A stretch of DNA of 64,000 nucleotides from NCBI GenBank assembly GCA_902601455.1, contig CACKNC010000001.1, positions 282,240 through 346,239 on the forward strand, written 5' to 3'. The notes under the pieces are model-generated. The model did no database searches. It was not told where the DNA came from and saw nothing but the letters and a program-made list of their open reading frames with translations. Shown here in pieces: positions 53,910-56,128 of this stretch; position 1 is the first letter of the stretch; each line of letters starts with the position of its first letter. Both the position numbers and the translations under genes were made by a program. Source of the stretch: an uncultured Alphaproteobacteria bacterium. GTDB lineage: Bacteria; Pseudomonadota; Alphaproteobacteria; HIMB59; GCA-002718135.

Positions 53910-53985
53910 GGGTGTTTAGCTCAGTTGGTAGAGCATCTCGTTTACACCGAGAGGGTCGGGAGTTCGAGTCTCTCAACACCCACCA
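53910..53985 (+). tRNA. tRNA-Val (TAC)
   Basis: Acceptor GGGTGTT with AACACCC, anticodon loop TTTACAC giving TAC, encoded CCA. It is followed after three bases by a cut copy of tRNA-Asp, showing that the two once formed a single tRNA operon. Confidence 0.97.
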
Positions 53986-53988
53986 TGC

Positions 53989-54029
53989 GCGGGAGTAGTT
54001 CAGCTGGTTAGAACGCTGCCCTGTCACGG
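53989..54029 (+). pseudogene. Truncated tRNA-Asp, 5' half (attachment-site copy)
   Basis: Forty-one bases identical to the intact tRNA-Asp from its first base through the anticodon stem (ending TGTCACGG), then the match stops and unrelated element DNA starts. It keeps the original spot three bases after tRNA-Val, so it is probably the ancestral gene's 5' half. Confidence 0.92.
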
Positions 54030-54130
54030 ATATAACCTACTATACGAAAGATTTTTTTAAAAATCTTTCGCTGTTTACCAACAAAAAAAAGTTTGCTTAC
54101 ACACATCCTAAATGAATCTAATCCTAGTCT

Positions 54131-54168
54131 TGGCACACTTTGTGGCAGGCTTGACACAGTTTGTGTCA
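54131..54168. repeat. Paired 17-base near-palindromes, possible recombinase arm sites
   Basis: TGGCACACTTTGTGGCA (54131-54147) and TGACACAGTTTGTGTCA (54152-54168) are four bases apart. The second is a perfect 7-3-7 palindrome. A third member is near the opposite end of the element. Confidence 0.7.
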
Positions 54169-54352
54169 CAGATGTTTTATTGACACACTTTTTTTTAAAG
54201 TCTTTTAAGGCGGTGTCTACTATCCTACCGCCAACCAAGGAGAATTAAAAAAAGGCTCCATTAATATGCATGACCATTGTGGACATGTCCATGGTTTATC
54301 ATTTTTAATAAATTGTATATTAATATTGGAATGTGTTTTTATCCCCCTATGT

Positions 54353-54396
54353 TTCACTGTGGCATCCTCTCCGTCCTCCTTGCGTGTCACAGTGAA
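54353..54396. repeat. Nine-base inverted repeat before the first element gene
   Basis: TTCACTGTG (54353-54361) and CACAGTGAA (54388-54396) flank a 26-base pyrimidine-rich spacer. The stem lies 18 bases upstream of the HTH gene start and could be an operator or a leader hairpin. Confidence 0.5.
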
Positions 54397-54413
54397 TCAC
54401 TTGTATCATCATA

Positions 54414-54626
54414 ATGGTTAATATTTTTAAACAAACACGGCTTAACAAAAAACTTCTCATCTCTGATGTAGTGGAGAAACTTTGCTATCCATCTGACGTA
54501 ATTGAATCACTAGAAAAGGATAAAATTGACTTTTTACCAAAACCATACAATTATTATTTTGCTAAATATTATGCGCAATTTCTTAAATTAGATAATATTC
54601 CTGATTTATTGAAAAAATACAGATAA
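54414..54626 (+). CDS. Small HTH protein resembling the RodZ N-terminal domain (HTH_25)
   Basis: A 70-residue protein whose pattern, from KQTRLNKKLLISDVVEKLCY through VIESLEKDKIDFLPKPYNYY to FAKYYAQFLKLDNIPDLLKKYR, follows the RodZ/HTH_25 helix-turn-helix consensus. Unlike RodZ it has no membrane segment. In an integrated element it may be a regulator of the element; the palindromes upstream are candidate targets. No ribosome site seen. Confidence 0.65.
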   Translation: MVNIFKQTRLNKKLLISDVVEKLCYPSDVIESLEKDKIDFLPKPYNYYFAKYYAQFLKLDNIPDLLKKYR

Positions 54627-54659
54627 ATTAATTATAATGAATAAAAATATTTTTTAAAA

Positions 54660-55205
54660 ATGAGAGGAAAGTATAGCTTATATTATGATTGGATAATAGA
54701 AGTAGGTGAAGAGAGATTAGTTGAGCAAAAATTTTTAAAAGAAAATTTTTATTCACGAGAAGATTACACGGTGTTTTTGTTCATTCTGATGCGTTTCTCA
54801 AAAAAATTGACTTCAGAAATAAGAGATAGCACGGCTAATAAATCTGATAATAAATTTATTAAAAGTACATTTCCCAATCAAAACATTACAGGTGATGAGT
54901 TAGATGAATTCATTATGCAATATTATGAAAAAGTAAAAAATTTGAAACATTATGGCACCACTCGCCGAGCCATTTCTATGCAAACTAATATTCCACGCAC
55001 GAGTGTAAAACGCATCCTTGATCGATTAATGAAAAGAAAATTAGTGACAGTAACAAAAAATGATAATTTAATTGTGCCAACCGCATTAGCAAGGAAAAAA
55101 TTTTCAGATTATAGGAAATATTTATTTACATCTTTTAAGAGACTCAATAAAATTTTTAATGATTCACATTTAGAATATCTTAATCCAAATGATCCAGGTC
55201 TATGA
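54660..55205 (+). CDS. Winged-helix protein of unknown family
   Basis: A 181-residue protein. The C-terminal half contains a helix-turn-helix-like stretch RRAISMQTNIPRTSVKRILDRLMKRKLVTVTKND, typical of MarR/Crp-style winged helices; the N-terminal half (EVGEERLVEQKFLKENFYSREDY) is not recognised. It follows the small HTH gene by 33 bases on the same strand, within the tRNA-Asp element. It could be an element regulator or a co-opted host regulator. Confidence 0.65.
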   Translation: MRGKYSLYYDWIIEVGEERLVEQKFLKENFYSREDYTVFLFILMRFSKKLTSEIRDSTANKSDNKFIKSTFPNQNITGDELDEFIMQYYEKVKNLKHYGTTRRAISMQTNIPRTSVKRILDRLMKRKLVTVTKNDNLIVPTALARKKFSDYRKYLFTSFKRLNKIFNDSHLEYLNPNDPGL

Positions 55206-55245
55206 GTTATCAAATAGTTTTTGAGGTCGTTACCTATAAGGATAT

Positions 55246-55641
55246 ATGCGTTTTTTAAGTAAATTTTTGATCCTTTTTCTTTCACTCCATGTTGCAATTA
55301 CTGTGGTTGCTTATTTTTATGGTTTTTCATTTACCTTCCCTTTTATCATGACAGAAGGCACTTATGTGCCTGAACATCGTTTACAAGCTTTACGTTTATC
55401 AACTTTTACCACTTTTGTTTATTTTGGTTTTCGATATTTATTTTTTGGTTCAGAAAAGTTGCATCCAATACAATTCTTAGGTGTTTCTTTATTTAACTTA
55501 GGTATTCTAGGTGGTCTATGCCTTTATGTTAATGATATTGATAATTCTTCAGAATATTTTTTAATACCTTTTTTTATACTTTCATCTATAATTTTATATA
55601 ACGCTACTAAACCGCAATATAGAAAATACTTTCAAAAATAA
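55246..55641 (+). CDS. Four-helix membrane protein, element cargo, unknown
   Basis: A 131-residue protein with about four hydrophobic helices (about 5-30, 48-66, 77-95, 105-122) and no motif I recognise. It is the third gene inside the tRNA-Asp element and follows the winged-helix gene by 40 bases. The codon pattern looks like its surroundings. Confidence 0.6.
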   Translation: MRFLSKFLILFLSLHVAITVVAYFYGFSFTFPFIMTEGTYVPEHRLQALRLSTFTTFVYFGFRYLFFGSEKLHPIQFLGVSLFNLGILGGLCLYVNDIDNSSEYFLIPFFILSSIILYNATKPQYRKYFQK

Positions 55642-55754
55642 CCTTTAGATTACCTTACCATCTACCTTTAAAAAGTAGATCAAAATTGATTAAAATTACA
55701 TGAAATTGAATTTAATATTAGTTGATAAGAAATGCTCTTTTAATTTGAATTTTC

Positions 55755-55771
55755 TGACACAATTTGTGCCA
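55755..55771. repeat. Third 17-base near-palindrome, right end of element
   Basis: TGACACAATTTGTGCCA matches the two copies at 54131-54168 (pattern TGRCACA-NTT-TGTGNCA) and directly precedes the integrase remnant. Confidence 0.65.
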
Positions 55772-55946
55772 TAAAAAATATCGAATCTATTGTTTCGAAT
55801 ACATATACGGAACGGAACTTACAAGGTTGGGTGTACCAGAGACGAAAATAGCAGACTTACTGGGACATTCTAATCTTGATATGGTTAGACGTTACACGAA
55901 GTTGGCACAGAAAGAGTATGGTGCTTACGTAAACAAACTGTCGTAA
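55764..55946 (+). pseudogene. Tyrosine recombinase/integrase, C-terminal remnant
   Basis: The reading frame ends IYGTELTRLGVPETKIADLL, GHSNLDMVRRYTKLAQ, which is the box II end of phage-type tyrosine recombinases: LGH and the catalytic-type Tyr after RRY. The preceding HxLRxT segment is degraded and the rest of the protein, over 200 residues, is missing, so it cannot be active. It lies 100 bases from the intact tRNA-Asp, where the integrase gene of such elements is expected. Confidence 0.8.
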
Positions 55947-55958
55947 CAGACATATACT

Positions 55959-55995
55959 AGACGGGTGGTGGCACAGACCACCGCCTGTCTTTTAA
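55959..55995 (+). terminator. Terminator after the integrase remnant
   Basis: AGACGGGTGGTGG pairs with CCACCGCCTGTCT (13 pairs, two G-U) around a six-base loop and is followed by TTTT. It ends transcripts from the element before tRNA-Asp. Confidence 0.8.
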
Positions 55996-56051
55996 ACTTT
56001 ACATTAAAAATCTTTAAATTATATAGGGAATCGCTGATGTTTACATCTCAT

Positions 56052-56128
56052 GCGGGAGTAGTTCAGCTGGTTAGAACGCTGCCCTGTCACGGCAGAGGTC
56101 GCGGGTTCGAATCCCGTCTCTCGCGCCA
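56052..56128 (+). tRNA. tRNA-Asp (GTC), intact
   Basis: A 77-base cloverleaf, acceptor GCGGGAG with CTCTCGC, anticodon loop CTGTCAC giving GTC, encoded CCA. Its 5' 41 bases are the element-borne copy of the repeat and its 3' half is presumably the original chromosomal one, so its promoter must now lie in element DNA rather than in the tRNA-Val operon. Confidence 0.97.

Follow-up and report, generated by a model that had tools for sequence, protein, structure and literature searches.

When an integrating element rebuilds a bacterial tRNA gene, the original promoter is used with very few exceptions, and a review citing Williams 2002 regards restoration of the 5' half of a tRNA as an arrangement seldom met in bacteria (PMC8371274). 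The archaeal pTN3-like integrases do use the tRNA 5' half as their attachment site, and there a promoter of the element expresses the rebuilt tRNA (PMC8371274). Integration of the cyanophage P-SSP7 into tRNA-Leu has also been shown (PMC8776855). A second group of relevant systems comprises elements that appear to depend on others: CIMEs, or 'hitcher' elements, have attachment-site-like ends and no working recombination gene, and are supposed to move by means of another element (PMC11389934). In the parts of the literature on which we draw, tycheposons of Prochlorococcus are described as elements of 4-200 kb with a tyrosine recombinase, and the additive flexible islands of Methylophilaceae, which are streamlined aquatic bacteria, as carrying tRNA-Lys repeats and cargo units from 330 bp upwards (both PMC10872708), while PICMIs, which are phage satellites, are described as small marine islands relying on phages (PMC10803314).

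The element considered here lies in a 64,000-nucleotide stretch of DNA (hereafter, the window) from an uncultured alphaproteobacterium of the HIMB59 lineage; all its features given below are on the forward strand, apart from the left arm, which has no strand assigned. As had been predicted, an exact 41-nt repeat bounds about 2 kb of DNA: nt 1-41 of tRNA-Asp(GUC) are present at 53989-54029 and again at 56052-56092, with 2,022 bp between the two copies. A comparison with sister genomes, proposed at the outset as the way to find an empty site, covered 29 same-genus loci around nuoA (L008-L036). In all 29, the gap between tRNA-Val and tRNA-Asp is 3 nt long and has nothing inside. The left copy of the repeat retains the TGC linker behind its native neighbour, tRNA-Val(TAC) (53910-53985, by ARAGORN; 3 nt upstream of tRNA-Asp in 29/29 relatives), just as at the empty sites; standing at the native position, it is therefore the native 5' half, now orphaned at an attL-type junction. 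The right copy, at the attR-type junction, has element DNA on its 5' side, and the native 3' half (56093-56128) completes the gene. ARAGORN finds a single intact tRNA-Asp(GTC) in the window, this rebuilt one at 56052-56128, all 77 nt of which agree with the gene of close relatives, L008 for example. A 2-kb segment has thus integrated into tRNA-Asp, and the 5' half of the working gene comes from the element, as the original prediction held. The locus shows several marks of a genomic island, namely a tRNA gene as target, direct repeats of part of that tRNA, a rebuilt tRNA and an empty site in relatives. Another such mark, an intact integrase of its own, is absent from the element, which has a C-terminal stub of 60 aa only. 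Among the 80 genomes of the order that have the tRNA-Asp 5' half, it is doubled in this one alone, and the insertion at tRNA-Asp is known from one assembly.

The stub (55755-55946) is a pseudogene for the truncated C-terminus of a tyrosine integrase, recognized by its identity to the viral sequence L119 and by a PF00589 match (55764-55946) at E 5.5e-6 in a Pfam search, and it was by way of this remnant that viral contigs L119-L128 were found. L119 was taken from a 19-kb viral contig, of which 7.2 kb was read; it carries a complete 336-aa integrase with attP directly behind it, a LuxR-type gene, a holin, an endolysin and an HNH gene. On the left, the element matches it over 54037-54176 (L119 5316-5455) at 139 of 140 positions (99.3%), which marks 54030-54180 as a left arm of phage attP-flank DNA. 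On the right, 183 of 184 positions (99.5%) are identical between 55815-55998 and L119 5031-5214, a stretch that corresponds to the last ~130 bp of the integrase gene and its trailer. The identity ends at 55999 and 54036, that is, only around the cassette of promoter and half-tRNA. What is new here is that both ends of the element are phage attP arms. The integrase was indeed decayed, as predicted; yet decay is only part of the matter, as its last ~130 bp and the trailer make up one of the two arms of a phage attachment site. The 60 bp at 55755-55814 are still integrase-like but only 74% identical to L119; their first codon in the integrase frame is a stop, and the HxxR region is lost. From this lower identity, part of the element is older or of other origin.

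Both arms contain palindromes of the form TGRCACA-N3-TGTGNCA, at 54131-54147 and 54152-54168 on the left and at 55755-55771, the start of the integrase remnant, on the right, with a half site at 54181-54187. Counting both strands, five matches were found, against 0.03 expected by chance per window, and related motifs flank the attP of L119-L122; these palindromes look like integrase arm sites. An exact search of the viral contigs for the element's own attP junction found none. The L119 region matched isolated phages in short patches only, and, the integrase stub aside, the element ORFs tested matched no phage gene for structure, lysis or replication.

Behind the integrase remnant lies a terminator-like hairpin (55964-55982), detected by consensus scan and conserved in L119, followed by a candidate promoter, TTTACA-16-TATATA (55998-56025), which ends 26 nt before the tRNA. 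The promoter was read from the sequence, since the consensus scan wants T as the final base of the second hexamer and so did not list it. Its hexamers and spacing are the same in L119, though the segment as a whole is just 73% identical, and L121 and L122 have TTTACA-17-TATATG at a similar place. The working tRNA-Asp is probably now transcribed from this phage-derived promoter of the element. In its 5'-half attachment site and its predicted element promoter, the tRNA-Asp element resembles the pTN3-like systems; these, however, are archaeal and encode their own integrase, whereas the tRNA-Asp element has no working one. P-SSP7 provides another parallel: beside its integrase, a stretch matches the first 32 nt of the tRNA-Leu of the genus studied here at 30 of 32 positions. 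In P-SSP7 and L119-L122 alike, attP lies directly behind the integrase and covers the tRNA from nt 1 to the anticodon region, with the integrase in the same orientation, as in the element, whose phage genes, unlike theirs, are limited to the arms and the integrase stub. The design had been called the opposite of the usual one. It is rare, yet with pTN3 and P-SSP7 it has precedents (PMC8371274).

Between the arms lies a small cargo island, as expected, with two helix-turn-helix genes and a membrane protein gene: a 70-aa HTH_25 (RodZ-type helix-turn-helix) protein (54414-54626; PF13413, E 9e-9), a 181-aa winged-helix (TrmB/MarR-like) protein (54660-55205; PF01978, E 5e-5, slightly short of the curated cut-off) and a putative membrane protein of 131 aa (55246-55641), with homologues in tRNA-Leu and tRNA-Ser mini-elements. 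The block 54218-55685 is shared, at 94% over 1,470 columns, with another species of the genus (G006), whose own tRNA-Asp site is empty and in which the cargo lies at tRNA-Gln(TTG), in an element of 1.64 kb that has a repeat of the tRNA 3' half at its borders, different ends and neither an integrase nor other phage genes. Between this genome and G006, dS is 0.06-0.16 for the cargo and 0.66-1.20 for the chromosomal genes hupB, nuoA and nuoB; the far lower value for the cargo therefore points to recent transfer between species. The cargo dN/dS of 0.18-0.42, based on few changes, fits working genes. The G037 chromosome encodes a distant winged-helix homologue next to an HTH_25-like gene, which suggests a bacterial origin for the cargo; relatives of two of the cargo proteins were not found in IMG/VR viral contigs, an absence that carries little weight in the case of a 2-kb element. 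Relatives of the membrane protein occur in tRNA-Leu elements (86-88%) and in a tRNA-Ser element (49%), and several genomes have a native-looking copy beside tRNA-Arg(CCT). Its AlphaFold2 model (pLDDT 85.5) gave no fold match at E<=0.001; the protein has no Pfam match above the curated cut-off (a weak TspO-like match has E 0.013), no defence-family match and no solved relative by sequence. Most likely the cargo, two regulators and a membrane protein, serves the host. Before the HTH gene, the non-coding stretch 54349-54406, identical in G006 save at its edges, contains the inverted repeat TTCACTGTG/CACAGTGAA, whose loop is rich in pyrimidines; this may be an operator or an origin.

The tRNA-Asp element does not stand alone: this genus harbours a population of such mini-elements. 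In 15 of 83 genomes, the one studied here among them, a single contig carries two or three copies of the tRNA-Leu(CAA) 5' half, and the 13 of these that were read show an intact tRNA beside at least one partial copy, with units of ~0.7-3 kb that carry one to few genes. The 5' half of tRNA-Ser(GGA) is doubled in 4/73 genomes and the 3' half of tRNA-Gln in 5/16, among them G106, where both copies are complete tRNAs. The tRNA-Leu elements have common ends of ~45-95 nt and unlike cargos; these ends include a promoter-like stretch, which is found at empty sites too. Likewise, at tRNA-Gln, the G006 and G020 elements carry unlike cargo between similar ends (95% over 148 nt and 90% over 98 nt). With the same cargo found between other ends and similar ends found around other cargos, ends and cargo assort in both directions. 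Tandem stacks of at least two half-tRNA-bounded units at one tRNA gene were seen in three cases (L098 in G108, L186 in G098 and L204 in G066). A search of isolated phages with the G006 and G023 elements gave no match. Several other members of this population may be mentioned. The genome studied here has a second mini-element, of 1.76 kb, at tRNA-Leu(CAA) (G000:C13, L179), which carries a gene of LysE type and a piece of an integrase N-terminus (phrog_1, E 7.9e-5); another tRNA-Leu mini-element (L099:5380-6771) encodes a protein with fused DNA methylase and HNH domains. Putative MORN-repeat-like cargo proteins, read from the sequence, are present in tRNA-Leu, tRNA-Ser and tRNA-Val elements (L190, L207, L208, L218). 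In G106, the 7.6 kb with large cargo genes between the two complete tRNA-Gln copies (L202, G106:C5) is either a larger element related to these small ones or the product of a duplicated tRNA.

Among the systems described above, CIMEs and hitchers share with the element attachment-type ends and the lack of a working recombination gene. Here the ends match those of an autonomous phage contig with a complete integrase (99.3% and 99.5%), with a different half-tRNA core, Asp instead of the Val of L119; moreover, CIMEs are known beside integrative conjugative elements, whereas this element is 2 kb long, has temperate-phage ends and restores the tRNA from the 5' side. As far as the sources cited describe them, tycheposons are also cargo elements at tRNA genes of streamlined marine bacteria, but at 2 kb and with a truncated recombinase the element falls outside their definition; the Methylophilaceae islands share repeated tRNA ends and small cargo units with it, but repeat the last 20 nt of the tRNA, with no phage-end match in the part of the description used here. 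PICMIs, as portrayed in the portion of the report considered, differ in that no packaging or integrase gene is seen in the element. A prophage remnant would be expected to contain structural, lysis or replication genes, none of which was matched by the ORFs tested here, the integrase stub aside, and integron cassettes or CALINs have attC hairpin sites, whereas the repeats of this element are tRNA halves and do not point to attC.

The exact tRNA-Asp 5' half lies just behind the integrase in L120-L122, whose integrases are 57-59% identical to that of L119 over the whole protein. The core of L119 (L119:5269-5308) instead contains 39 nt identical to the tRNA-Val(GAC) 5' part found in this genus, the present genome among them. 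The anticodon stem CTGCC/GGCAG is confined, among the tRNAs read here, to Asp(GTC) and Val(GAC), whose loops are CTGTCAC and TCGACAC, respectively. Integrases of the lambda type bind inverted core sites around a 7-bp overlap. The fit of core and overlap to the anticodon loop has been described (PMC8371274), so that one integrase could use both the Asp and the Val(GAC) genes if the overlap were exchanged. Arms of >99% identity on two different tRNA halves, Val(GAC) in L119:5269-5308 and Asp in window 55999-56092, look like a natural retargeting of one integrase. As for the other targets, no tRNA-Leu or tRNA-Gln halves were found in viral contigs, and a search by arm motif for a tRNA-Gln phage gave three contigs, rejected because they had nothing in common but a 20-base motif.

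The reading that best accommodates these data, to which we assign a probability of about two in three, is that of an integrase-less, cassette-like mini-island, in which phage-derived attachment arms surround travelling cargo and which phage integrases mobilize in trans. Near-identical phage ends, together with the same cargo at another tRNA in another species, suggest tiny gene cassettes that borrow phage integrases. In the mechanism we propose, a phage integrase acting in trans would bind core sites in the anticodon stem (CTGCC/GGCAG) as well as the TGRCACA palindromes as arm sites, and strand exchange across the 7-bp anticodon loop would insert a circular form of the element. If the cassette of promoter and half-tRNA in the attachment site were exchanged, the target would change, as between tRNA-Val(GAC) in L119 and tRNA-Asp in the element. 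The helper integrase would have to arrive by infection. In this genome, which is 85.8% complete, the search for an L119-type integrase found nothing beyond the stub in the window, and a search for such integrases or prophages in 162 genomes of the order and in genome contigs returned only that stub and distant recombinases. The sole intact integrase above the Pfam cut-off in this genome is on the 3' side of tRNA-Val(GAC). This tyrosine integrase of 326 aa (G000:C2:1-2202, L218) lies next to a putative MORN-repeat-like gene, at a contig end. Several points weigh against the preferred reading: neither an excised circle nor packaging nor a further insertion of the element was seen, viral contigs yielded no relative of the cargo, the genomes searched contained no L119-type prophage, part of the integrase remnant matches L119 less well, and a single assembly shows the insertion.

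Origin by local duplication of the tRNA-Asp 5' half, which by itself could yield a direct repeat, is rejected as having a negligible chance of being correct: the site is empty in all 29 relatives and both ends are phage-homologous, which together bear out the predicted integration, and the foreign cargo is common to another locus. Only slightly more credible, and still very improbable, is an assembly or amplification chimera in which phage DNA and chromosome were joined at the 41-nt repeat. Such a join could have arisen at the repeat, the insertion was seen once, and three of the relatives are AG-series single-cell or metagenome assemblies, as this genome may be too; yet both junctions would need to be false in a consistent way, and what is inserted is cargo of bacterial type flanked by phage arms, with the same cargo present in a separate assembly.

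More serious, though in our judgement unlikely, is that the locus is a dead remnant, left by a cargo-carrying temperate phage of the L119 type (or an autonomous island) that integrated in tRNA-Asp, lost all but the cargo, the ends and the integrase stub, and is now immobile. Streamlined genomes delete DNA readily, the integrase is truncated with its HxxR motif region destroyed, and the tRNA-Leu element of this genome contains a scrap of an integrase N-terminus, all of which speak for such a history. It accounts less well for the same cargo at another tRNA, between other ends and free of any phage gene, for the independent assortment of ends and cargo in several elements and for the failure to find the cargo in viral contigs. 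Both arms, furthermore, are retained through the arm-site palindromes. Mobilization of the element in trans by phage integrases, which we infer from these features, remains the preferred reading. A broader proposal is possible but distinctly tentative, with a chance we would put somewhat below even: this marine genus may harbour a cassette system without a cassette integrase, in which units of 0.8-3 kb with one to few cargo genes and short half-tRNA ends would be inserted in trans by phage integrases (at Asp, Leu and Ser by the 5' half, at Gln by the 3' half), with tandem stacking, cargo swaps between end types and retargeting by a swap of half-tRNA and promoter on kept arms.

The locus connects the attachment sites of present-day phages with the very small islands that lie between tRNA repeats in a streamlined marine bacterium, and it suggests concretely how individual genes could pass between species in which mobile elements are scarce. 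With almost identical arms on two tRNA halves that share an anticodon stem, integrase retargeting can be tested directly. Finally, the locus indicates that an essential tRNA gene can become dependent on a mobile element both for its 5' half and, probably, for its promoter.
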